Shown one piece after another: positions 3,819-20,049 of a stretch of 64,000 nucleotides of DNA. The stretch is from Nostoc sp. CENA543. GTDB lineage: Bacteria; Cyanobacteriota; Cyanobacteriia; Cyanobacteriales; Nostocaceae. The notes under the pieces are model-generated. The model saw only the letters and a list, made by a program, of their open reading frames with translations, was not told where the DNA came from and did not search any database. The DNA lies in contig NZ_CP023278.1 in NCBI RefSeq assembly GCF_002896875.1, positions 2,480,001 through 2,544,000 on the forward strand. The letters are read 5' to 3'. A program made the translations under genes and the position numbers. Every line of letters begins with the position of its first letter. Positions within the stretch are counted from its first letter, which is position 1.

Positions 3819-4796
3819 ATGAATAATCAATTAAATTTAGAACCCCCCCCGCAGGACTTCATCTCACCATTATTAGAACTCAGGGACTACTACAGTCGTC
3901 TTGTAGAAGAGTATGAAACTCTGTACACACAGGCGCGATCGCAACTTGACCATGTACAAGCATTATTAGCAAATTGGTCTGTGGCTACAGAAACTAAAAG
4001 CCAGGTTGCTACCCTCGAAGTTAGTCAAGATGTATCCAAAAATCTTCAAGATGAGCCTTTGTTGTCTTCGTCTGATCAAGTTTCCCAAGTAGTTATTGAT
4101 TCAGTAGAACCCAGCGCGGACAGTGAAGAAAACGAAGAAGCAGTAACCGTTGCAGAAACGAAAGTTGCATCCACTCCAGAGGTGACAGCAGAAAGCATTA
4201 AAGGAATTGACTTCCCCATGCTGCCTGAGTATAAAGCGATGAGTCGGATGGAAGCTATTCAAAAGTTACTACAGGAACACTTGGGTGCTGTATGTCATAT
4301 AGATTTCATCGTGCGATCGCTCTATGGTGAGTTAGATCCACATATTTTTAAAGTAGTTAAAGGTAGAGTCCAATCTTCCCTCACCCAAGGTAGAGAAAGA
4401 AAGGTATGGTTTGGGATACCTGACGAACCTGGTTGTTACACCATAGACTTAACTTTGGTTAATTCTAATCGCACTCATACTTACTCTCGCAATGGCAAAA
4501 GTAAGAGGAAGCCACCTTTAATAGTTCCGAAAGCTAAAGTTGTGCCGATGCTCAAACCCTATGAAGGTCAATTTTTAATTGATGCTCTCACTGTTTTCTT
4601 TCGACACAATCCAGGAAAAGTATTTAGTGTGGCGGAAGTCGTCACAGGTTTATATGGAGACATCAATGATGAAGATTACCGCGAGGTTAAAGGCAAAGTC
4701 TTAAATGAACTATCACGCGGTTATCGCATCGGCAGATTCGACAGAATGCCGGAAAAGGTTGGTTTTTATACTTTGGATGTAGATTTGGCGAATTAG
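3819..4796 (+). CDS. Uncharacterised protein with two tandem winged-helix-like repeats
   Basis: This 325-residue protein has three parts: an N-terminal stretch predicted as coiled coil (about 15-55, YYSRLVEEYETLYTQARSQL), an acidic low-complexity linker (about 60-130), and two related C-terminal modules. The modules share ...LL/LTVF..H.G.V..v..iVrsLYGel/gdi....(F/Y)+vVKG+V...L..GR..+.WF/iGRFD+.P...G.YTLDv.L, at about 145-215 and 255-323. The repeats resemble DNA-binding winged helices in length and pattern; that is inference. ATG at 3819 was preferred over an in-frame TTG at 3801 that overlaps the stop of the previous gene. It converges on glpK. Confidence 0.7.
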   Translation: MNNQLNLEPPPQDFISPLLELRDYYSRLVEEYETLYTQARSQLDHVQALLANWSVATETKSQVATLEVSQDVSKNLQDEPLLSSSDQVSQVVIDSVEPSADSEENEEAVTVAETKVASTPEVTAESIKGIDFPMLPEYKAMSRMEAIQKLLQEHLGAVCHIDFIVRSLYGELDPHIFKVVKGRVQSSLTQGRERKVWFGIPDEPGCYTIDLTLVNSNRTHTYSRNGKSKRKPPLIVPKAKVVPMLKPYEGQFLIDALTVFFRHNPGKVFSVAEVVTGLYGDINDEDYREVKGKVLNELSRGYRIGRFDRMPEKVGFYTLDVDLAN

Positions 4797-4825
4797 GGAT
4801 TGGGGAGGCAAGAGGCAGGGGGGCA

Positions 4826-7266: not shown

Positions 7267-8952
7267 ATGGCAGAGGTATCGCCCAAGGTATTCATTTCCT
7301 ACTCACACAAAGACGAACCCCTGAAAAATGAACTCATTAAACACCTGATAATTTTAAAACGGGATAAAGTGATTTCTCTATGGCACGACCGTGAGATATC
7401 GCCTGGAGTTGAGTGGGATCAACAAATCAACGCTAATCTTCAAACCGCCGATATCATTCTGCTGCTCGTTAGTTCAGACTTTATTGCTTCTGATTACTGT
7501 TGGGGTGTAGAAGTTAATACAGCAATAGCACGTCATAACGCTGGAAATGCTCGCGTTATTCCTGTGATTCTCAGAAATGTTATGTGGCAGTCAGCACCCT
7601 TTGCCAAACTGCAAGCTTTGCCCACAAATGCTAAACCTGTTAAATCTTGGCCGCATGAAGATGATGCGTTTACTGATATTGCTCAGGGTATTCGGGACGC
7701 TGCCAAAGAATTAATTCAGGAACGTCAGCAAAAACAAGCAAGAGCGAATAGAGAAGCAGCTTTAGCTGAATATCGCCGAAAAGTTGTAGAATTTGCTGCC
7801 GATGGGGAAATTTCCTTGGCGGAGTCTTTTATCTTGCAAGATGAACAAAAAAGGCTGGGGCTGACAGACCAAGAAACTGAGAAAATCAGAGAGCAAGTAT
7901 TAGAGCCTTATGGAATCTATAAAGAAAATTTGGACAAATATCGGCAATTTTTCACGCAGTTAGTAGAAGCACAAGGATATCCACTACCAGAAAAGGCTAA
8001 AGGTGAATTAAGTAAGCTACAAAATTACTATAGTCTAAAAGATGAAGATATAGACCGGATAGAACAAGAACAAAAAAATATAGAGCAGCAAAATCAATCT
8101 CAGTGGTTTGAGTTTAAAACTGCTAAAGTAACTGTAATATCAGGAACATCTTGTATAGTTAATTACAGCCAAGGTAAAGCCGAATTCTTCAATGAACGCC
8201 TAGATCATGGTATTAATCTAGAAATGGTTGCTATTCCTGGTGGACAGTTTCTCATGGGTTCGCCGGAAAGTGAAGAGAAGCGCGACAGTGATGAAAGTCC
8301 CCAGCACCATGTAAAGATTCAACCCTTTTTTATGGGTAAATTTCCCGTTACTCAAGCTCAATGGCGAGTGGTTGCGGCTTGGGATAAGGTAAATATTGAT
8401 TTAGACCCTGACCCCTCCAGATTTAAAGGGAATAATCGTCCTGTAGAGTGTGTATCATGGGATCATGCTGTAGAGTTTTGTCACCGCTTATCGAGAAGGA
8501 CGAATAAAACCTATCGCTTACCTAGTGAAGCGGAATGGGAATATGCTTGTCGTGCTGGAACAACTGCACCATTCTGTTTTGGCGAAACTCTCACCACTGA
8601 CTTAGCAAATTACGATGGTAACTTTACCTACGGTGCAGGGTCAAAGGGTGAATATCGTAAACAAACAACCGATGTAGGAAGTTTTCCAGCGAATTTGTTT
8701 GGTTTATACGATTTGCATGGTAATATATACGAATGGTGTGAAGATGTTTGGCATGATAACTACAATGGTGCGCCGAATGATGGCAGTGCCTGGGTAAATA
8801 ATAAAGATGAAGATGCGCGTCGGCTGCTGCGCGGTGGTTCGTGGTACGGCCTTCCGTGGTACTGTCGCTCGGCTAATCGCGTTAGGTACGCGCGTGGCAA
8901 TAGGTACGACGACGTGGGTTTTCGGGTTGTGATTGCCGTCCTCAGGACTTAA
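7267..8952 (+). CDS. DGR target protein: TIR domain fused to FGE-sulfatase (C-type-lectin-fold) domain with variable C-terminus
   Basis: The protein has 561 residues in three parts. The TIR domain (about 5-140) starts KVFISYSHKDEPLKNELIKHL and keeps the Glu of YCWGVEV (E82), at the usual position of the TIR NADase catalytic Glu. A charged, helical linker follows (about 145-290). The FGE-sulfatase/SUMF1-type domain (about 300-558) has MVAIPGGQFLMGSPESE, YRLPSEAEWEYACRAG, LYDLHGNIYEWCEDVW and LLRGGSW. Of the two FGE active-site Cys only C533 remains, so the domain probably binds a ligand. The last 43 residues are encoded by VR (8821-8945). Compared with TR, residues 527, 528, 529, 531, 532, 539, 541, 544, 547, 548 and 549 differ, all from TR codons containing A. 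It leads the operon with avd and RT. Inference: the lectin-fold end senses a variable ligand and the TIR end signals or acts. Confidence 0.93.
   Translation: MAEVSPKVFISYSHKDEPLKNELIKHLIILKRDKVISLWHDREISPGVEWDQQINANLQTADIILLLVSSDFIASDYCWGVEVNTAIARHNAGNARVIPVILRNVMWQSAPFAKLQALPTNAKPVKSWPHEDDAFTDIAQGIRDAAKELIQERQQKQARANREAALAEYRRKVVEFAADGEISLAESFILQDEQKRLGLTDQETEKIREQVLEPYGIYKENLDKYRQFFTQLVEAQGYPLPEKAKGELSKLQNYYSLKDEDIDRIEQEQKNIEQQNQSQWFEFKTAKVTVISGTSCIVNYSQGKAEFFNERLDHGINLEMVAIPGGQFLMGSPESEEKRDSDESPQHHVKIQPFFMGKFPVTQAQWRVVAAWDKVNIDLDPDPSRFKGNNRPVECVSWDHAVEFCHRLSRRTNKTYRLPSEAEWEYACRAGTTAPFCFGETLTTDLANYDGNFTYGAGSKGEYRKQTTDVGSFPANLFGLYDLHGNIYEWCEDVWHDNYNGAPNDGSAWVNNKDEDARRLLRGGSWYGLPWYCRSANRVRYARGNRYDDVGFRVVIAVLRT
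8821..8945 (+). repeat. DGR variable repeat (VR)
   Basis: This 125-bp repeat at the 3' end of the target gene pairs with the template repeat at 10775-10899. Compared base by base, 14 positions differ (8845, 8848, 8849, 8851, 8852, 8857, 8860, 8881, 8882, 8887, 8897, 8905, 8908, 8911). All 14 are A in the template, and are T, G or C here. The 97 template positions that are not A are all conserved. The last 34 bp (8912-8945, starting ACGTGGG) are invariant and correspond to the initiation-of-mutagenic-homing segment. Similarity stops at 8946, where VR has G and TR has C. Confidence 0.96.
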
Positions 8953-8961
8953 ACTAGTCCT
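8944..8961 (+). promoter_or_regulatory. Hairpin immediately after VR (candidate target-recognition stem-loop)
   Basis: AGGACT (8944-8949) and AGTCCT (8956-8961) form a 6-bp stem with a 6-nt loop that spans the target stop codon and the end of VR. Some studied DGRs need an inverted repeat just downstream of the VR homing site for efficient retrohoming, so position fits. The template copy has a different short stem (CAGCA and TGCTG, 10897-10912). A simple terminator role is the alternative. Confidence 0.45.
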
Positions 8962-9060
8962 TTACACTTTTCCCCTTTTGCCCTCTGCGCTGTTTTCTTT
9001 GTTCTTACTTCTCTCCGCCGCAGGCGGATAAATTTTTTTTAGTTTTTTTTAGGTTTTCAG

Positions 9061-9432
9061 ATGAGTGACTTACCAATCATACAAAAAACATACGACTTAA
9101 TCAAGTGGTACGTCCCGATTCTTAACCGCTTACCCAGAGATCATAAGCTACTCTTAGGTAATCGCATCATCACAGAACTTTATAATCTGCTAGATGGGTT
9201 AATCATAGCACGCTACGCCAAACAAAAGTTAACTCAACTAGAAACGTTAAATACCAAGCTAGATATATTACGTTATCAAACCCGATTGCTTTTAGACTTC
9301 GATTTAATGAAAACAGAGCGTTACGAATATGCTCAAAAACTTATCAATGATATTGGCGTAGATTTAGGTGGTTGGATTAGACAACAAAAGAACCAAAATC
9401 ATGGGATAGTAGCAACTTCCCATGCCAACTAA
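9061..9432 (+). CDS. avd: DGR accessory variability determinant (Avd), four-helix-bundle protein
   Basis: This 123-residue, mostly helical protein has the Avd/four-helix-bundle pattern: [33 protein letters not shown], then [14 protein letters not shown], then [29 protein letters not shown] and a basic end with GGWIRQQ. Known Avd proteins form positively charged pentameric barrels that bind the RT and template RNA and are required for mutagenic retrohoming. It starts 108 bp after the target stop and ends 8 bp before the RT start, so avd and RT are translationally close and surely co-transcribed. Confidence 0.9.
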
Positions 9433-9440
9433 GATTATAT

Positions 9441-10511
9441 ATGAAAAGATACGGTAACTTGTGGCAAGATATTACAGCATTTAGCAATTTACTCGCCGCC
9501 TCAAAGCAAGCACAAAAAGGTAAAAGATTTAGAACTAACGTTTTAGAATTTAACTACAATCTAGAGCAGGAATTATTTCATTTACAACATCAATTACTAT
9601 CAAAAACGTATTCTCCTGGAGAATACCGCACATTTTATATTTTTGAACCAAAGCCACGGATGATTTCGGCTGCTCCCTATCGAGATAGAGTCATACATCA
9701 CGCTTTATGTAATATTATTGTCCCCATTTTTGAACGCACATTTATTAGTGATTCCTACGCTAATCGAGTCGGGTTTGGTTCTCATCGGGCATTACGTCGC
9801 TTTACTGAATTTGCACGCTCTCATCAATATGTTTTGCAAGCAGATATCTGTAAATACTTTCCCAGCATTGATCACGAAATACTAAAATCCCTCATCAGGC
9901 GGAAAATAAAATGTGCTGATACACTGTGGTTAATAGACACTATTATTGATAACAGTAATTCTCAAGAATTAGTAATTAATTATTTTACAGGTGATAATTT
10001 ACTCACACCCACAGAAAGAAGACATGGCTTACCAATTGGTAATTTAACAAGTCAGTTTTTTGCGAATGTATATCTAAATGGCTTTGACCATTTTGTAAAA
10101 GAAGAACTTAAGGCTACTCAATATATTCGTTATGTTGATGATTTCGCATTATTTTCTGATGATGAAATATTTTTAGAAAAAGCCAGAGTTAAAATTGAAG
10201 AATATCTTGCCAGCCTCAGACTAAAGATACATCCCATTAAAAGCCAATTATTTGCAACACAATACGGAGCTAATTTTGTTGGATTTCGTATTTTACCAAA
10301 TCGCATTCGGGTAAGAAATGACAATTTACGCCAAGCCAGAAGGCGATTAAAGCAAATGCGGCTAGACTACGACCAAGGGAAAATAGAATATAAAACCAAT
10401 TCGCAATTCGCAATTCGCAATTCGCAATTAATTCAGCCACCCACAAGGGGTGGGGTTTTTACCTACCTTGGGAAACAAGGATTTTTTCGCCCACCAGGGG
10501 CGAGGTTTTGA
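9441..10511 (+). CDS. DGR reverse transcriptase, C-terminus replaced by an inserted repeat
   Basis: This 356-codon frame is an RT with the palm motifs of DGR enzymes: catalytic Asp in [16 protein letters not shown] (D135), [18 protein letters not shown] (about 196-213; IGNxTSQ is the DGR signature in place of the retroviral QGxxxSP), and [11 protein letters not shown] with YVDD at 231-234. [10 protein letters not shown] and the thumb helix [11 protein letters not shown] follow. Native similarity ends near T319 (10395-10397). Residues 320-356 are encoded by a dispersed repeat (aattcgc heptamers plus three GC hairpins). The genuine end of the protein is found after the repeat in another frame (see 10514-10615). 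The enzyme is therefore either C-terminally shortened or inactive. It follows avd by 8 bp. Confidence 0.93.
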
Positions 10512-10512
10512 A
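10397..10512. repeat. Repeat element inserted in the RT gene
   Basis: The element is about 118 bp. It starts with four aattcgc heptamers, then aattcagccacccac shared with 7096-7112. Three consecutive hairpins follow: ccacccacaaggggtggg, ccttgggaaacaagg and cgcccaccaggggcg. Its length is not a multiple of three, so it shifts the reading frame and creates a TGA at 10509-10511. Boundaries are inferred from where RT similarity stops and resumes, give or take a few bases. Confidence 0.7.
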
Positions 10513-10513
10513 C

Positions 10514-10615
10514 CTATCTTTTTCCAATAAAAAAATCTCTCAATCTCTGCAAAGTTGGATTGCTCACCTGAAACATGGAAATACCTGGAAACTACGCCAA
10601 AAAATATTTAATTAG
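10514..10615 (+). pseudogene. Displaced C-terminal segment of the DGR reverse transcriptase
   Basis: In the frame +2 to the RT, the sequence reads LSFSNKKISQSLQSWIAHLK then HGNTWKLRQKIFN and a TAG stop at 10613-10615. DGR RTs typically end with a conserved SWxxHxxHaxTxxLRxxIF block, so this is the original end of the enzyme at 9441, separated by the repeat insertion. It has no start codon or ribosome-binding site of its own. Confidence 0.75.
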
Positions 10616-10655
10616 CTTAATAGCAATTTTCTATGAAGTTGCGCCGAATAAATAA

Positions 10656-10685
10656 TGTAGAGACTTTGCATGCAAAGTCTCTACA
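10656..10685. repeat. 30-bp perfect palindrome between RT and TR
   Basis: A perfect palindrome centred on GCATGC, with arms TGTAGAGACTTTGCA and its complement, sits between the RT and the template repeat. It could fold in the RNA carrying TR or be a dispersed REP-like sequence. No T-tract follows, so a terminator is unlikely. Confidence 0.7.
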
Positions 10686-10774
10686 GTACAGAATAAAATT
10701 CATCTTCCTCAAGAAAAGATATAACTAGATTATATAAATTAATATGTTAAACTTCTCTATGGGATAGGCAATTC

Positions 10775-10899
10775 CGGCTGCTGCGCGGTGGTTCGTGGAA
10801 CAACAATCCGAGGAACTGTCGCTCGGCTAATCGCAATAGGAACGCGCGTGACAATAGGAACAACAACGTGGGTTTTCGGGTTGTGATTGCCGTCCTCAG
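10775..10899 (+). ncRNA. DGR template repeat (TR)
   Basis: This 125-bp non-coding template lies on the same strand as the RT, 160 bp after the displaced RT stop. It aligns without gaps to VR (8821-8945). It has 28 adenines, of which 14 are changed in VR, and no other base is changed. Many adenines lie in AAC or AAT codons when read in the VR frame (N-N-N-P-R-N, N-R-N, N-N-N). These codons allow many amino acids after A mutagenesis but no stop codon. Established DGR mechanism: TR RNA is copied by the RT/Avd complex with errors at A and the cDNA replaces VR. TR itself stays unchanged. Confidence 0.95.
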
Positions 10900-11039
10900 C
10901 ACTCTTTTGCTGTCAGAATTAGTGAATGGGAATTCATTGAGCGTACCATAGAAGAGTCCAGACCTATTCCAGTGAAGTTGGTAACAATTTCCGAAAATAA
11001 AACCGAGTTGGGTAGCTTGGTAGGCTGTAAAGTCGAACA

Positions 11040-11326
11040 GTTATCTGACTCACCTAAAATCTTATTTTTTAAATTCAATACTCGGATTTCACTCAATTCT
11101 GTAAGTTCAAACCCTGAATCTGCTAAATCGGCATTATTAGAAACTAAAATTAAGCTGCGTGTCATTAATGTAGCCTCAATCAAGGTCTATTTCCCTTCTA
11201 CATCTGCATCAAAAATTGCTATTTGTTTAGGCGTTAAATCATTGAGTGTACCTGTAATAGCTTCTAAAACTAGAATAATATTAATTCTTGCTGTTAAGAC
11301 ATCCTCTAATTCATACAACTGTTAAG
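11040..11326 (-). pseudogene. Possible remnant of a toxin-antitoxin pair (antitoxin end joined to PIN-domain end)
   Basis: On the minus strand, one frame from about 11326 reads LYELEDVLTARINIILVLEA then ITGTLNDLTPKQIAIFDADV and ends EGK-stop at about 11194. The same frame continues after the stop as TLIEATLMTRSLILVSNNAD then LADSGFELTELSEIRVLNLK. The second part resembles the C-terminal half of VapC-type PIN domains (xLIAATA...LtLVtrNxxDFadsG...vlN). The N-terminal PIN half with its first Asp is missing. I infer a decayed module; family assignment is weak. Reading frames on the opposite strand look like shadows. Confidence 0.3.
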
Positions 11327-14168: not shown

Positions 14169-14369
14169 TCAATCATCCGCTTTGATTTTACCGATTTCTC
14201 CTACCCAACGACGGCGATCGCGATGTTCTAAACTGATAATATCTGCTAAACTCCAGTGAAAATGATACGCAATACAGGCTACCTCCTCATCTAGCAGTTC
14301 TGAGGGGTAGCCAACTATTCCCCCGCTAAGGCTAACTCCACTTGAAACTGACTCTGACACTGGGGACAC
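14169..14369 (-). CDS. DUF6760-like small eCIS-associated protein
   Basis: This 66-residue frame has the core GGIVGYPSELLDEEVACIAY then HFHWSLADIISLEHRDRRRW. This matches short proteins found next to phage-like tail tube genes (DUF6760 type): GYP, a helical HWS-x-x-DI-x-x-LEHxxRRRW segment and a short tail. Function is unknown. It is the last gene of the minus-strand eCIS operon. No ATG is available: GTG codons at 14369 and 14360 are the candidate starts and both overlap the end of the upstream gene, which suggests translational coupling. Confidence 0.65.
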   Translation of the reverse strand: MSPVSESVSSGVSLSGGIVGYPSELLDEEVACIAYHFHWSLADIISLEHRDRRRWVGEIGKIKADD

Positions 14370-14692
14370 TGCACAGGAATATAAACATCACCTTGTTGAT
14401 TAATGCGATTATAAAACTCTCTTAAATAAGCCAAGTCTTTAGAAAAAAGATTCTCTAATAAATCGGGAGTTATTTCCGTCAAACTGCCTAATTTAGTGAT
14501 GACTCTAGATAACATGACAATCACAGCATAACTAGAATTTTCTTGAGCATCGCGGTTTCTCTGCACCATAATTTCATCTTTAGCAGTCGTCAGACGCATC
14601 ACACCATGACGATGTAAATTACCCTCTGTATCCAACAAACCTCTAGGTAAAATAAATTCAAATTCTGTACAAAAAATCTCTTCATTATTCAT
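14315..14692 (-). CDS. eCIS/phage tail assembly protein with C-terminal zinc-ribbon motif
   Basis: This 125-residue protein has the family pattern FEFILPRGLLDTEGNLHRHGVMRL, a helical middle (AVIVMLSRVITKLGSLTEITPDLLENLFSKDLAYLREFYNRIN) and an added C-terminal VQCPQCQSQFQVEL with a CxxC pair. It is probably a small chaperone or tail-assembly factor acting on the tube or sheath. It is a paralog of the gene at 14858-15154, which lacks the Cys segment. It overlaps the next gene by about 55 bp. Confidence 0.8.
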   Translation of the reverse strand: MNNEEIFCTEFEFILPRGLLDTEGNLHRHGVMRLTTAKDEIMVQRNRDAQENSSYAVIVMLSRVITKLGSLTEITPDLLENLFSKDLAYLREFYNRINQQGDVYIPVQCPQCQSQFQVELALAGE

Positions 14693-14857
14693 ATATATAT
14701 AATCAAATATTAGAAAAAAATCATAATTTTAAATCTCTATTCTCTGACCACCATTTTATATAAAATTAGGATAGGTGGTATTGTTTCAAGATTCTGGAAT
14801 AGTCTAATAATCTAGGCTTTTAATCCAAAATCCAAAATCCAAAATCCAAAATTGGCA
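14693..14857. repeat. Spacer with ccaaaat heptamers
   Basis: The gap between the two tail assembly genes contains a run of five ccaaaat-type heptamers at about 14820-14852. No gene is seen. Confidence 0.6.
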
Positions 14858-15154
14858 TTATTCCTCTTTTAATTCATTAATTTGACGATAAAATTGTTGT
14901 AAATAACTCAAATCGCAGGCAAAAAAATTTTCTACTACAGCAGGTGTCACTTCATCTAATGCACCTAAGCGAATAATCACACGAGATAAAATAATCACAG
15001 TTGCATAAGCAGGATTGGTTTTCACACGCGGATCACGCAATGGCACAATTTCATCAATTGCTCTAGATAAACGCATTACTCCTGTGCGATGTAAATTTCC
15101 ATCTTCATCCAGATAGCCTTTCGGTAAAGTAAATTCAAACTCAGTTTGTAACAT
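14858..15154 (-). CDS. eCIS/phage tail assembly protein
   Basis: This 98-residue protein reads FEFTLPKGYLDEDGNLHRTG, then VMRLSRAIDEIVPLRD, then VIILSRVIIRLGALDEVTPA. It aligns along its length with the first two thirds of the neighbour at 14315-14692, sharing LP+G.LD.+GNLHR.GVMRL, LSRVI..LG.L.E+TP and the DL.YL..FY..IN block. It ends at INELKEE without the CxxC extension. The two genes look like a tandem duplication with later change. Role: probable tail tube/sheath assembly factor of the eCIS. Confidence 0.8.
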   Translation of the reverse strand: MLQTEFEFTLPKGYLDEDGNLHRTGVMRLSRAIDEIVPLRDPRVKTNPAYATVIILSRVIIRLGALDEVTPAVVENFFACDLSYLQQFYRQINELKEE

Positions 15155-15490
15155 CAGTAAGTCTCATGCTTTATTAACTAATAGCACGATATATATAGGA
15201 TTCCTACTTGATTGTTGAACAGATACGTAGGGGAGACAATATCGCAGTGTGGATTTTCCTCATGCAATATTGCCGTTGTGTTAGCAGCGAGAGTACAGCA
15301 ACTAGCACCAAGGCTTTTGATGCGTTACGGCTTACGCCCAACACACCCTACAAACACTAATAACAGGATATTAACCACCTATATTATCTTGTTATCTGGA
15401 AGTGAAATCCTATTGATCGCGGAAATTAACATTTATTTTATAATTTATCTGTACAAAATTCTGTATTTTGACACTAAACAAGCAAAATTA
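15155..15490. other. Repeat-bearing gap in the eCIS operon
   Basis: It contains the dispersed sequence gcgttacggcttacgccc followed by aacacaccctac near 15320-15352; related repeat sequence is found at 17144-17180. A plus-strand reading frame through 15212-15616 overlaps the tube gene and has no family features, so it is not reported as a gene. Confidence 0.5.
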
Positions 15491-15982
15491 TTAAGTTACT
15501 TTCACCCGTTTGAGTTCTTCAACAACCATTTCTATTTCTTCAATTTCATGTTCACTACCTTCAGCCTTGACATCAGAAATTGTATAACTAGTAGGCCAGG
15601 CATTTTTAAATTCTAATCTAAATTTTTCTTCTGCTGCTTGATTATAAATAACTAAAGAACCATCACGCCTTTCATCACCCCATTTACCTTCTTTAATAGC
15701 TGCTAACCAATTCCACATAGTCATAGAAATAGTTAACCCACGGCGTAAAACTATATTAGAATAAGTGATATTTCCAGGGATTTTACTACGCACAATCCGC
15801 CCATTAGCAGCACCTGTTTTACCCCAGGTAAGAGGTGTTACTTCTGATATTTCTATGACTTCCTGAGTAGTTTTAAAACCTTGACATTCCATAAAGTAAC
15901 CATCAATTGGTTCTTGACTGCCAGTCAGTTTTAATTCTAAATAAAAGCGACTATTAGTAAGAATTTCAGGAAATTCTGCCAT
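15491..15982 (-). CDS. eCIS tail tube protein (gp19-like), third copy
   Basis: This 163-residue protein is of the T4 gp19/phage tail tube family. It shows NSRFYLELKLTGSQEPIDGYF, a glycine-poor core (ECQGFKTTQEVIEISEVTPLTWGKTG), RRGLTISMTMWNWLAAIKEGKWGDERRDGSLVIYNQ and the family ending LEFKNAWPTSYTISDVKAEGSEHEIEEIEMVVEEL. It is the most divergent of three tube proteins in the operon. In known eCIS, paralogous tube proteins form the main tube and the rings contacting the baseplate; this one is more like the baseplate-adjacent type. Transcribed after 16066-16530. Confidence 0.85.
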   Translation of the reverse strand: MAEFPEILTNSRFYLELKLTGSQEPIDGYFMECQGFKTTQEVIEISEVTPLTWGKTGAANGRIVRSKIPGNITYSNIVLRRGLTISMTMWNWLAAIKEGKWGDERRDGSLVIYNQAAEEKFRLEFKNAWPTSYTISDVKAEGSEHEIEEIEMVVEELKRVKVT

Positions 15983-16005
15983 GATTAATTACCTCTTATG
16001 TGTTT

Positions 16006-16055
16006 GTAGTAAGGATGTTAGTCCCCAAAGAAGAAAGGACTAAAGTCCTTACTAC
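16006..16055. repeat. Inverted repeat between two tube genes
   Basis: Arms of 19 bp (16006-16024 and 16037-16055) match at 17 positions and flank a 12-bp loop. The stem lies in the 83-bp gap between tube genes and would form in the operon mRNA. Related sequence ggactaaagtcc also appears at 7042-7053. Confidence 0.6.
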
Positions 16056-16065
16056 GAACTTATAT

Positions 16066-16530
16066 TTACTTTTTGCGTTCAAAATAGGTAAAGCCTATCG
16101 TCACTGTTTCTGTCAGTAAATCACCAGAACCGGCGGTAAAATCACTGGTTGCATAGCTAGTGGGAAAGACATCTGTAAATTCATACTGTACTTTTTCTTC
16201 CGCACCATCATAAATAGAAAGCTTTCCTAATTTACGATTAGTACGACCTTCGGCTTTACCACCAGAAAGAGCCTCAGCATGGCATTTGTTATACCAATCA
16301 AGCAGTTGCTTAGAGTCAGCAGTGGCGACACATTCAAGAGTAATTTCTGAACATTCTACGCCCCCAATTGTAGCTTGCGTTTGAGTTTTACCATCTTTGG
16401 TGACACCAATAGGCGCATCTCCGCCTGCTACCGTCATTTTCATTTGCATCCCACTAATCTTTTGAATCAAAATTTCAGTGAGTCCATCAGCTTCCCAGTA
16501 GAACTTAGCATTAGAAATAAACTCTGGCAT
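16066..16530 (-). CDS. eCIS tail tube protein (gp19-like), second copy
   Basis: The 154-residue gp19-like protein starts MPEFISNAKFYWEADGLTEI. It has KDGKTQTQATIGGVECSEITLECVATADSKQLLDWYNKCH, RKLGKLSIYDGAEEKVQYEF and the family end DVFPTSYATSDFTAGSGDLLTETVTIGFTYFER. It forms the inner tube through which cargo is ejected when the sheath contracts. About 65 bp separate it from the first tube gene. Confidence 0.88.
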   Translation of the reverse strand: MPEFISNAKFYWEADGLTEILIQKISGMQMKMTVAGGDAPIGVTKDGKTQTQATIGGVECSEITLECVATADSKQLLDWYNKCHAEALSGGKAEGRTNRKLGKLSIYDGAEEKVQYEFTDVFPTSYATSDFTAGSGDLLTETVTIGFTYFERKK

Positions 16531-16595
16531 AAATTAATCCTCCCAAACGACTCCAGATTAGATGATATAAATCGGTGCAATTGCAGCAGTTAATT

Positions 16596-17081
16596 TTATT
16601 TAGTCCTGTTGATATTTTCACAGGTTAATGTATAGGTTTCTTCAATATAGTCATTGCCATTGACATCTAAATCTCCAATTTTATATTCAGAAGGCCAAGC
16701 TTCTTTTAATTCCCAACGTAATACCTCATTGCCATCAGTATCGTAGGCGGTAATAGAGCCTGTTTTTTTGCTGTCTAGCCATTTGCCTTCACCTTTTTCA
16801 GCTTTGGGCATACACTTTTTAAACCACTCATACATTTTTTTGCTGGTGCTATCACTATCACCACTCATCAGGGTTGTGACTTCGATTGTGAATAGCCCTT
16901 CAAAACCAGCAGAGTTGATTTGTCGAATAGTCTTGCCGCCTTTAGTAGACATTAAAGGTTTATCTTGACCTTTGACTTTAGCTTCAAATTTGACACCACC
17001 AACTTTAGTAAAAGCCATGTCGGTCATGCTATCAATTTCAAAGTAAAAATTACTGGCGGCAATTGGTTTTAATTCAGGCAT
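16596..17081 (-). CDS. eCIS tail tube protein (gp19-like), first copy
   Basis: The 161-residue protein reads ASNFYFEIDSMTDMAFTKVG, then GGKTIRQINSAGFEGLFTIEVTTLMSGDSDSTSKKMYEWFKKC, KTGSITAYDTDGNEVLRWEL and EAWPSEYKIGDLDVNGNDYIEETYTLTCENI. This is the closest of the three to the canonical main tube protein of contractile injection systems (Afp1/Pvc1 class). It follows the sheath gene, the usual order in these loci. Confidence 0.9.
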   Translation of the reverse strand: MPELKPIAASNFYFEIDSMTDMAFTKVGGVKFEAKVKGQDKPLMSTKGGKTIRQINSAGFEGLFTIEVTTLMSGDSDSTSKKMYEWFKKCMPKAEKGEGKWLDSKKTGSITAYDTDGNEVLRWELKEAWPSEYKIGDLDVNGNDYIEETYTLTCENINRTK

Positions 17082-17143
17082 ATTGACAACTCCATTAAAT
17101 TAGCAACAGTATTTGTGTTTATTTTGGGTTCTTCCTCGTATTT

Positions 17144-17180
17144 GGTGGGGTGCGTTAGCCTATGGCATAACACACCCTAC
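17144..17180. repeat. Inverted repeat between sheath and tube genes
   Basis: GGTGGGGTGCGTTAGCC (17144-17160) and GGCATAACACACCCTAC (17164-17180) pair around a TAT loop with a few mismatches. It lies in the 196-bp gap after the sheath gene, followed by (ttttgaa)n heptamers at about 17244-17276. Sequence of the right arm recurs near 15340. Confidence 0.65.
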
Positions 17181-17277
17181 AAATTATCAATTCTTCAAAA
17201 TCCAGTAATATATTCAAACTTAGAAACAATATATTTGTCTTAATTTTGAATTTTGAATTTTGAATTTTGAATTGGTA

Positions 17278-18948
17278 TTACTGGTTAGGAGACCACTGAC
17301 TAAAGCGGAAGATGACAAACTCCGCCGGACGTACAGGACAGACACCAACTTCAATGTACAAACGTCCTAACATCATGGTTTCGTGAGTGTTGATGCTAGA
17401 GTCACATTTGACATAGAAAGCTTCTGCGGCTGTCGCACCAAATAAAGCACCTTCGCGCCAGAGTCTTTCTAGGAAGTTGCTGACGGTACGGGTGACACGC
17501 GCCCATAGGTCTTGGTCGTTTGGTTCAAATACTACCCACTGTGTACCCAATTCTACGGACTTCTCAATGTAGCTCATCAAGCGGCGGACGCTGATATAAC
17601 GCCATTGCACGTTGTCTGGTTCGACCAAGGTACGCGCACCCCAAATTCTGATACCTCGGTTGGGGAAGGTGCGGATACAGTTGATACCCAAGGGGTTGAG
17701 TAATTCTTGTTCGCGGAGGTTGGTTTCATAGGCTAAACCGATCACACCTCTGGGTGTGTCATTGGCTGGTGCTTTATACACGCCGCGTGTTTCATCGGTG
17801 CGACACCAGACCCCTAGCATATGACCGGCGGGAGGAACGAGGATGGGTCTACCACCGTTGCGGGGGTTGGGGACTTTAATCCAAGGATAGTAGAGGGCGG
17901 CAAATTGCGATCGCCTGTTAAATGCACTCAACCACTGAGCAATATGCTGGGGTTTGACTTGGGTGGGAGGCACAGGATCACCACCTCCTTTGCAGGGGGG
18001 TGGGTCTAACACTACCATCCGGTTAGGCGCAGTGTTTTCGCACAGGCTGACCATTGTCTCCATAATTCCATGCACTTGATCCAAGTCCAAGATGCCGTTT
18101 TGATAAACGCGCATCAAGTCAGGACAAGCAATCATGGTTACTTCGTCAATTTCAAAGATACCTTGCATACCGGTGCGATCGTCTCTCACACCTTGGACAT
18201 CACGAGGGAAGCGGTCTGGTGTGGAGACTACAGGGGGGGGACTGACTTCGTAGTTACCATTGGCTGGACGACGAGACAGAGGTTGTCCTGGTGTTTGTAA
18301 GTCTACGGCGTTGACAAACTCTGATGTTTCTAAAGCCGTCACTACATAAGTACCTGCCTCTGCTGCTACTTCTGGATTCATCGAGAGGTTGTCATACTCC
18401 TCTAGAATTTCCCCATTACGGCTAATGGTGACTTTAAAGAATTCACCTGTATTTAGAGGTGGTTCGGCGGCTGGGTCGGCTGGTGGCAGTGGTTCACTTT
18501 CGGTAATGGTGATATTGAATCTACCGCCATCATCATCAGCATCATCACCCTCGGCGGGTTTGAGTGCGAACTGTAAAGAAGGACGATTTCCTGTTGTACG
18601 AATCTTGAGAGCTGTTTCATCAACTGATGGTGCTGGTGAACCAGGTAATTTTGTCCCGATACTAACTACCCAACACCGTCCACCACCGTTTAAGAACCAA
18701 CCATTGACAGCAAAAGGTAAATAGGCATCAAAATCTGTATAACCGTCGGAACCTTGTTTAGCAAAGTATTCTAAATACTCGTTCCACGATGTCACCAACA
18801 TTGGTTTGAACAATTCGGCATCACCGCGTATATCTTCAGTAAAGCCAATGAATCCGGCAATATTTGTACTCACGCCCTCAATTGGACGACTACCTCGGTC
18901 TACTTCTTCGACGTAGACCCCAGGAGCGAAATAATCTAATCTAGGCAT
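17278..18948 (-). CDS. eCIS contractile tail sheath protein
   Basis: This 556-residue sheath protein contracts to drive the inner tube into a target. The N-terminus YFAPGVYVEEVDRGSRPIEG then VSTNIAGFIGF is diagnostic of gp18-like sheaths. The C-terminal domain has RGIRIWGARTLVEPDNVQWRYISVRRLMSYIEKSV, LWARVTRTVSNFLERLWREGALFGATAAEAFYVKCD and VCPVRPAEFVIFRFSQW. Residues about 130-255 form a variable, acidic and proline-rich surface insertion (DDADDDGGRFNITITESEP). It follows the DUF4255 gene and precedes three tube genes, as in eCIS clusters. No baseplate, spike or AAA ATPase gene lies in the window. Confidence 0.95.
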   Translation of the reverse strand: MPRLDYFAPGVYVEEVDRGSRPIEGVSTNIAGFIGFTEDIRGDAELFKPMLVTSWNEYLEYFAKQGSDGYTDFDAYLPFAVNGWFLNGGGRCWVVSIGTKLPGSPAPSVDETALKIRTTGNRPSLQFALKPAEGDDADDDGGRFNITITESEPLPPADPAAEPPLNTGEFFKVTISRNGEILEEYDNLSMNPEVAAEAGTYVVTALETSEFVNAVDLQTPGQPLSRRPANGNYEVSPPPVVSTPDRFPRDVQGVRDDRTGMQGIFEIDEVTMIACPDLMRVYQNGILDLDQVHGIMETMVSLCENTAPNRMVVLDPPPCKGGGDPVPPTQVKPQHIAQWLSAFNRRSQFAALYYPWIKVPNPRNGGRPILVPPAGHMLGVWCRTDETRGVYKAPANDTPRGVIGLAYETNLREQELLNPLGINCIRTFPNRGIRIWGARTLVEPDNVQWRYISVRRLMSYIEKSVELGTQWVVFEPNDQDLWARVTRTVSNFLERLWREGALFGATAAEAFYVKCDSSINTHETMMLGRLYIEVGVCPVRPAEFVIFRFSQWSPNQ

Positions 18949-19072
18949 TGGATCATTTTCCTGTGTTGAACGAATAACTGTTCTTAGCCCAATTCTGAAA
19001 AATTCAAGAACACATCGAAAACTTTGTGAATATTGAATTTTGAATTGGTTTTAGTCCTCTCTAGCTGATTAC

Positions 19073-19594
19073 TCAAGCATTTTTGAGCAATACTTCCTCA
19101 TCGGAATGATGAATCAAAGGATCGCTTTGCAGATTCAAAGGAATAGTCAACGTCACATACAAAGCTGGACGTAAAGGTACACCTAAAGCACTCCACAAAG
19201 TTGCAGCATCAATGGGATTAATGGTGCAAACGGTCATAGATAATTCACCGTGACCGCGTAACGCCGGCGCAAGTAGATCCTCTGGTAAACAGTGGTGATG
19301 TAACAGTAATCTCAAAGCCTCTGACAACAAACGTTGTTCCCCCAAACTGGTACAGTCCCACGCACTCAATAAGAAAGACACATCAAACCACCGAGGCGGC
19401 GGTAGAGGTTTTATTTCTTCTTTAGTTGGTTGCTCTATGTAAACATTTTCCTGAATGTTGTAACAATACAAATTCAATCTAGGGTTTACATTTTGGCTCA
19501 TAGCAGGGTGGTTAAAATCAATTTGCTCCGTAGAAAGCAGAGAAATGCCACCAGCTAAAATTTCTGCTAAAGTCTGGGTAGCAGCTGGAATCAT
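19073..19594 (-). CDS. DUF4255/Pvc16-like eCIS protein
   Basis: From ATG at 19594 this gives 173 residues. Landmarks are ATQTLAEILAGGISLLSTEQIDF, RLNLYCYNIQENVY, RWFDVSFLLSAWDCTSLGEQRLLSEALRLLLHHHCLP and LWSALGVPLRPALYVTLTIPL. This is the pattern of the N-terminal DUF4255 domain of Pvc16/Afp16-type proteins, which cap or finish the tail sheath. An upstream TTG at 19672 would add 26 residues and is less likely. It leads the minus-strand eCIS operon. Confidence 0.8.
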   Translation of the reverse strand: MIPAATQTLAEILAGGISLLSTEQIDFNHPAMSQNVNPRLNLYCYNIQENVYIEQPTKEEIKPLPPPRWFDVSFLLSAWDCTSLGEQRLLSEALRLLLHHHCLPEDLLAPALRGHGELSMTVCTINPIDAATLWSALGVPLRPALYVTLTIPLNLQSDPLIHHSDEEVLLKNA

Positions 19595-20049
19595 AAGACA
19601 CAACAGCAGGGTTTTATGAACATGACCCCAAATACTACCAGTCACTTGATTTGATGTATTTGATGCCACCAAAAAATAATGTGTGGTACAGGGGGTATAC
19701 TGACCAGAGTTGTTTATGCAATCGGGACAAAGTTATGACTTTGTGGTTTGCAAATAGGGAAATTTAAGTGCCGACAGCACAAAATAAACCTTTGCCAGAG
19801 GCTTTAAATTGGATTTACAGTTCTGGGACTAAATGTTTATAGCTTAGAGATCCAAGCCGTTAGAAGTTATTAGACTTTGGTCGAGATTCTAAATAATTGT
19901 TTTAAATTGCATAAATTTCATACCTGTGCAGTAAGCTAATTCTGTCCGTAGTTATACAGTCAGCAGCTTGATTTCTACTACAGGCAGAGAATATCTGCAT
20001 GGGGGTAAAATCTGCAATGCTGTTTGCTATTCAAGTATACGGGGGATTA
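19595..20049. other. Divergent control region between the eCIS operon and its two-component genes
   Basis: This region separates the minus-strand eCIS operon from the plus-strand kinase. A TATACT (19695-19700) with a preceding G-rich stretch could be a plus-strand -10 box. I see no clear direct or inverted repeat that would mark a response-regulator site. Confidence 0.35.

Follow-up and report, generated by a model that had tools for sequence, protein, structure and literature searches.

The window analysed here, a 64,000-nucleotide stretch of Nostoc sp. CENA543 (NZ_CP023278.1, positions 2,480,001 to 2,544,000), contains a diversity-generating retroelement (DGR). We think it likely that this nostocacean chromosomal element generated diversity on the variable face of a TIR-FGE protein until recently, and that its reverse transcriptase (RT) has very probably since been silenced by the insertion of a repeat.

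Signature of the element and the lesion in its RT gene

The element is a cyanobacterial DGR, recognised by adenine-only differences between its variable region (VR) and template region (TR), an Avd protein, an RT core of the DGR type, an FGE target and a structured spacer. Its features are listed below, with positions counted from the first letter of the window. The genome that holds the window is labelled G000; other G numbers denote compared genomes and L numbers denote extracted loci, with L001 holding the window copy.

7267–8952, + strand: target gene, 561 aa, with an N-terminal TIR domain (ThsB-like) and a C-terminal FGE-sulfatase domain containing the VR (Pfam, PADLOC)
8821–8945, + strand: VR, with 14 substitutions relative to the TR, all at TR adenines
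8946–8949, + strand: boundary resembling an initiation of mutagenic homing (IMH) site, where VR/TR similarity ends, with a single non-A difference
9061–9432, + strand: avd, accessory protein (Pfam bAvd, 1.7e-18; NCBIfam DivGenRetAVD)
9441–10511, + strand: RT open reading frame (ORF), 356 aa (Pfam RVT_1), native from residue 1 to about 319 and with a repeat-derived tail
10390–10532, + strand: insertion in the RT gene, a 131 bp repeat between two copies of ATAAAA
10529–10615, + strand: rest of the RT, displaced and out of frame (KKISQSLQSWIAHLKHGNTWKLRQKIFN, then a stop codon)
10775–10899, + strand: TR, with 28 adenines
10900–11060, + strand: structured spacer RNA directly 3' of the TR, with six helices and 43 pairs, matching Rfam RT-14

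The VR and TR, offset by 1954 bp, differ at 14/125 positions, all 14 of them adenines in the TR (seven A to T, six A to G and one A to C), and they are identical at the 97/97 non-A positions. The preliminary description of this region had given the same counts for the differences, together with the alteration of half of the 28 TR adenines, and both were exact on recount (14/14 and 14/28). Ten of the substitutions fall at codon position 1 and four at position 2, and none of the 225 codon variants available through A substitutions in the TR reading frame yields a stop codon. The VR covers target codons from about 519 to 560, at the C-terminal end of the FGE domain (Pfam FGE-sulfatase, 1.2e-56, aa 319–555), which is C-type-lectin-like according to the literature. 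The N-terminal part matches TIR_2 (2.7e-16) and PADLOC ThsB (2.6e-57, aa 6–192); the latter is a match of the TIR only, and no search for ThsA was made. Avd scores 137.2 bits against NCBIfam NF033474, which has a cut-off of 80. The RT has IGNLTSQ at residue 199 and YVDD at residue 231, in keeping with the definition of DGR RT motifs, (I/V/L)GxxxSQ plus YxDD, in the DiGReF report (PMC3521204).

Beyond the 125 bp, similarity extends for another 4 bp with one non-A mismatch (G 8946/C 10900), which is also present in the orthologous element of G001, a genome of the same genus. A non-A difference lies no more than 12 nt from the VR/TR 3' end in 19 of 24 ungapped loci, and the G/C difference appears to be the one expected between IMH and IMH* (terms as used in PMC12875486).

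Alternatively, the VR and TR might be diverged duplicates of an FGE-coding segment that arose without a DGR mechanism, and FGE paralogues are indeed present elsewhere in G000. However, the probability that 14 mismatches would land only on the 28 adenines of 125 positions by chance is 3.3e-11, avd and RT adjoin, and 20 of the 30 RT-bearing loci counted likewise have a VR core free of non-A differences. The adenine bias and the fact that it is conserved already refute this explanation.

The RT gene is interrupted by a 131 bp repeat (10396–10526) flanked by copies of ATAAAA at 10390–10395 and 10527–10532. As the net insert, made up of the repeat and the duplicated ATAAAA, is 137 bp and not a multiple of 3, the reading frame shifts near residue 319. 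Matches to relatives stop at about residue 320, past which the ORF reads through the repeat (TTCGCAA heptamers and more) to its end, and the native remainder continues out of frame 3' of the insert. The RTs of relatives continue uninterrupted across the insertion point (alignment A2). In G001 the downstream side of this point is also uninterrupted, though a deletion in that genome ends right beside it. The preliminary description left out this damage, the insertion at 10396–10532. Its identification of a DGR stands on the signature, Avd, RT motifs and FGE target, but the element is probably not a complete, working one, as the RT ORF is frameshifted.

The frameshift displaces a C-terminal S-W-x-A-H motif. 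Of 38 distinct RT loci, 34 have this motif in frame, 33 of them as SWxAHL and L067 as SWFAHF. It is absent from the frame in the window and in three truncated genes of 160, 188 and 240 aa; thus 34 of the 37 relatives keep the motif, including every untruncated one. The 38 loci include the window and were derived from 40 listed, with L096 (a fragment) dropped and L035 and L045 (one locus) counted once; loci below 60% identity and L086, in which the ORF runs off the contig, were excluded, and loci of the two collections were compared for identical RTs only. L339 and I343 are also invariant in the C-terminal stretch of an alignment of 30 RTs (A1), although A1 consists of 30 of the 33 SWxAHL loci, which makes the invariance of its S, W, A, H and L positions partly a matter of choice, and 34/38 is the fair figure. 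A profile of these 30 RTs aligns the C-terminal stretch with PDB 8ub7 ('Reverse transcriptase'), which is also the best PDB match of the window RT (6.5e-51) and which we take to be bRT of BPP-1, the DGR of a phage. In AlphaFold models, the confidence score (pLDDT) of the window ORF is below 50 over residues 318–345 and 347–356, and block values over 321–350 are 38–45, compared with 58–67 in the intact relative L014; helices are drawn in this region in both models.

Given the lost C-terminal motif, a short interspersed repeat has very probably inactivated the RT by inserting into its gene, but several observations weigh against this. The intact L014 model is itself of modest confidence (64–79 over 291–340), and the window model is still helical at 317–330 and 338–345, with pLDDT mostly below 50. 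The window RT keeps YVDD, IGNLTSQ and a basic stretch (8 R/K of 21) that follows motif 7. The VR bears no sign of lost activity, having a non-A count like those of RT-bearing loci, and the altered RT may still work. The insertion may also be a strain-level or laboratory event, and the sensor and signalling role of the target is putative, drawn from domain matches.

Were the DGR still active, an RT with a repeat-derived tail of about 37 residues would be working and the clean VR would reflect ongoing retrohoming. The 0/83 non-A mismatches in the VR core, the retained YVDD, IGNLTSQ and basic patch, and the intact pairs of the spacer RNA are all consistent with this. We nevertheless regard continued activity as unlikely. 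The displaced motif is present in all 34 untruncated RTs and aligns with 8ub7, the tail is modelled at pLDDT below 50, and the catalytic core is missing from the G001 orthologue, so that this lineage may plausibly have come to depend less on the RT. The clean signature attests to activity in the recent past and not to an element that is intact now; a VR and TR that differ only at adenines, however cleanly, do not prove that a DGR works.

It is highly improbable that the assembler misplaced a repeat in the RT gene. The repeat is multi-copy, with 43 matches in the genome, mostly partial, and a 99% identical copy at G000:C1:5810166–5810296 (L053). However, the genome is in six contigs with a main contig of 6.99 Mb, and the two best copies of the repeat are set apart by one base and by their flanking sequences. 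A 6 bp duplication flanks the insert, though ATAAAA also precedes the copies in L053 and L054–L056 and could be part of the repeat element or its preferred site.

In G014, another RT (L049:8063–8449) ends at about residue 165 and is followed directly by three tandem 129-nt copies of a different repeat.

A genome search of G000 found no other DGR RT. Two further Avd-like matches (C1:3215152 and C1:5439162), both under the curated cut-off, were set aside. C1:6580588 and C1:2842364 were considered as current remote targets and rejected; their differences are enriched at TR-A sites (16/26 and 15/26), but they have 18/83 and 23/83 non-A mismatches, respectively, and are old paralogues at best.

A sister element and the timing of activity

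In the orthologous DGR of G001, an internal deletion has removed the RT from profile position 160 to about 311, YVDD included, and the two orthologous elements therefore bear different RT lesions. Their TRs differ at four non-A positions, and the VRs follow the TRs at three of these four; the remaining 17 differences between the VRs are all at TR adenines. As the VRs track the TRs at three of four sites, transfer from TR to VR took place after the two elements split, and both worked after that point. Over RT residues 1–159, dN/dS between the window and G001 is 0.069 at a dS of 0.51, and the corresponding ratios are 0.121 for avd, 0.193 for the FGE part without the VR and 0.417 for the TIR part.

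With no non-A differences over 97 sites, the silent time of the window element is less than about 12% of the branch (95% bound), and the single non-A difference in G001 gives less than about 19% (95% bound). Both bounds assume free drift of the TR after the death of the element, neutrality and a constant rate. In this same-genus pair, one sensor gene was diversified and then apparently frozen, by a different RT lesion in each genome.

While the element worked, the TR RNA with its spacer would have been bound by RT-Avd and copied with errors at A, and the complementary DNA (cDNA) would have replaced the VR by mutagenic retrohoming. The FGE domain may sense a ligand and the TIR domain may signal, as in putative antigen-sensor systems. 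An RT without the C-terminal motif would no longer work, and the present VR would be frozen.

Spacer RNAs with and without an RT

The conserved 160 nt that follow the TR fold into six helices. In an alignment of 22 of 24 stretches, with L016 and L068 left out and the ends trimmed by hand, 96.4% of cells are paired and 31 of 43 pairs have changed on both sides. Two-sided changes were counted in 160 cells, versus 14–28 in slid controls, and none of 500 shuffles reached any of the measures. In the window, all 43 pairs are intact. No sigma-70-type promoter was found in 10500–11200, where 1.5 would be expected by chance.

The window spacer matches Rfam RF02921 (RT-14) over the full length of the model (1–144), but its score of 42.3 bits is under the gathering score of 48.1; the G001 orthologue scores 48.9 bits and L026 scores 63.4 bits. 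RT-14 was matched in six of 15 sources listed (L001 not among them), two of them above the gathering score. RT-14 appears to correspond to the 3' spacer in the template RNAs of cyanobacterial DGRs. A literature search for RT-14 found no paper, and we do not claim its link to DGRs as new.

A spacer RNA model (R1), trained on these 22 loci and matching them by construction, returned 43 copies in 24 of 59 genomes at E <= 1e-6. The RT search (E <= 1e-40) found RTs in 16 of the 59 genomes, at 26 places, 22 of them full-length. When spacers and RTs were paired by eye from lists by place, 24 of the 43 spacers were found to adjoin an RT, accounting for all 22 full-length RTs and two broken ones, those of the window and G001. 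The remaining 19 (14 strong, with at least 115 bits, and five weak) have no RT beside them, and none was found in the stretches fetched around them. Thus, a spacer RNA model finds DGR remnants that are missed by an RT-gene search, and counts based on RTs may understate the number of sensor genes that have passed through a DGR.

Eight of these loci (L128–L130 and L132–L136) lack avd and RT but have an FGE-type VR, with a TR and spacer 145–393 bp further on. The VR of L136 is gapped, and of its FGE domain only the VR end could be recognised. Such cassettes occur in genomes with an RT elsewhere, G024 and G030 among them, and in genomes without one. In L138 and L139, the FGE gene terminates at the spacer with a diversified VR, and an RT lies about 10 kb away on the L139 contig. 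L127 and L137 have a TR and spacer with no target upstream, and L140 has the start of avd followed by a spacer-like match (91 bits). L141–L144 are weak spacer matches of 39.6–82.9 bits; L141, the only one of the four searched for other DGR parts, yielded none.

In the last two loci, L039 (G000) and L131 (G001), the TR-like end of a caspase-FGE target gene runs straight into the spacer. L039 (G000:C1:2175423–2175710; L039:8424–8711) encodes a caspase (Peptidase_C14)-FGE protein with an undiversified, TR-like 3' end fused to the spacer RNA, which scores 142.9 bits with R1 and keeps 35 of 43 pairs; an Rfam scan of L039 gave no match. The two loci differ at 2 of about 135 end positions (by eye), and their caspase parts are 74% identical in protein. 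L039 was rejected as a remote VR of the window TR, as 19 of the 21 mismatches are at non-A sites.

Where the VR could be compared, the RT-less loci have 1, 2, 2, 3, 3, 6 and 12 non-A differences (n = 7). The RT-bearing loci have none in 20/30 and between 1 and 20 in the others, so that RT-less loci have more (Mann–Whitney p = 6e-4). L014, L023, L136 and L137 were left out because they have no good ungapped VR, and L068 (12 non-A mismatches) and L070 (20) were kept as RT-bearing.

Five genomes with RT-less cassettes have no full DGR RT. Neither G021 nor G035 gave any RT match, G018 has an 86-residue piece and one low-scoring RT, and G003 and G034 have only low-scoring RTs that were taken to be of other kinds. 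In the G003 cassette (L132, reverse complement, TR at 4696–4823), an A-poor segment, TTCGCCGATGCC, is common to the TR and its VR. Related TRs carry AACAACAATGCC at this place, as if the VR had been copied back into the TR.

One apparently orthologous site is found in different states. An IspE-KsgA-target-Uma2-kinase arrangement (the names IspE, KsgA and Uma2 are those we take these genes to have) marks a single locus in G000, G001 and G003, and so does the Uma2-kinase side in G014, the only side that its contig provides. The site holds a full DGR with a kinase-FGE target in G014, a VR and TR without an RT in G003, and the fused form in G000 and G001. The simplest reading of these sequences is that loss of avd and RT was followed by recombination between VR and TR, an order of events that we infer. 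As the N-terminal domain of the target differs, being a kinase in G014 and a caspase in L039, domains were also exchanged. The order of decay becomes testable at this apparently orthologous site, where intact, RT-less and collapsed forms are all found.

A broader scheme is speculative and, as a whole, unlikely. In heterocystous cyanobacteria, DGRs may pass through a cycle in which loss of the RT freezes a selected sensor, cassettes of target-VR and TR-spacer persist without an RT, and a later-arriving or distant RT may reawaken or diversify them in trans. The structured spacer RNA would be the lasting mark of such dormant cassettes, and the window would be at the first step of the cycle.

Elsewhere in the window, phage-tail-like genes occupy 14315–19672 on the − strand, of which the two that were tested encode a sheath and a T4 gp19-like tube protein. 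Sets of sheath and tube genes occur in contractile injection systems.

Comparison with known systems

By sequence similarity, the window DGR appears to belong to a cyanobacterial DGR clade for which PMC7517822, in its account of the clade, gives 58 DGRs in 52 genomes, among them all3497 of Nostoc PCC 7120, and which is clade 5E in the scheme of PMC10907252. The window RT is 63–80% identical over full length to the cyanobacterial relatives identified here, against a clade average of 67%, and the FGE/CLec target is shared, with TIR among the target domains reported (PMC7517822). The window differs in having an RT broken by a short repeat and a target N-terminus that matches the Thoeris ThsB model. 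The same account describes, in PCC 7120, a paralogue that retains remnants of TR-VR homology and has no RT in its vicinity (PMC7517822).

Reports of DGRs with a broken RT and an adenine-only VR date back to 2012, and the window is another such case. The legend to Fig. 4 of DiGReF (PMC3521204) lists inactivated RTs with A-only VR/TR differences, due to a stop codon in R. gnavus, an insertion in Acaryochloris marina and a frameshift in Bacteroides. With an RT ORF disrupted by an insertion and A-only VR/TR differences, the window fits this class, sharing with it a truncated RT, an A-only VR and the inference of very recent inactivation (PMC3521204). In contrast to those cases, it can be set beside an orthologue with another RT lesion and beside RT-less loci with more non-A changes. 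In Thiohalocapsa PB-PSB1, as described in PMC10907252, repeats resembling miniature inverted-repeat transposable elements, or transposons, likewise interrupt or replace DGR RT genes, and one target has CHAT and TIR domains. However, that organism is of another phylum, and intact and interrupted forms were seen there together in long reads. An antigen-sensor role for DGR targets is proposed in the same work (PMC10907252).

Spacer copies apart from an RT are likewise already in print, as the text of PMC3610870 on Nodularia spumigena reports 70 copies of a non-coding RNA (ncRNA) element in one genome, and a strong start site for the DGR1 ncRNA 199 nt after the RT gene, which suggests that TR RNA is transcribed there. 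Those copies are at least 98% identical and were read as insertions (PMC3610870), whereas the RT-less cassettes described here adjoin FGE target genes. For Nostoc punctiforme, high expression of TR RNA and adenine-specific hypermutation are reported in PMC12691664.

The preliminary description held that gene order and strand are as in known DGRs. Target, avd and RT do lie in this order on the + strand, and in most relatives, too, the RT lies between a VR on its upstream side and a TR on its downstream side (in six of the RT-bearing loci of the mismatch count, the VR was found beyond the TR), but the order in BPP-1 is avd-TR-brt (PMC12875486). In the description of BPP-1 in that source, the spacer 3' of the TR recruits bRT-Avd and primes cDNA synthesis. 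The window element resembles it in encoding RT, Avd and a TR RNA with a structured spacer 3' of the TR, and the C-terminal RT motif could be aligned with PDB 8ub7; it differs in being chromosomal, BPP-1 being a phage element, and in that its RT no longer has this motif in frame.

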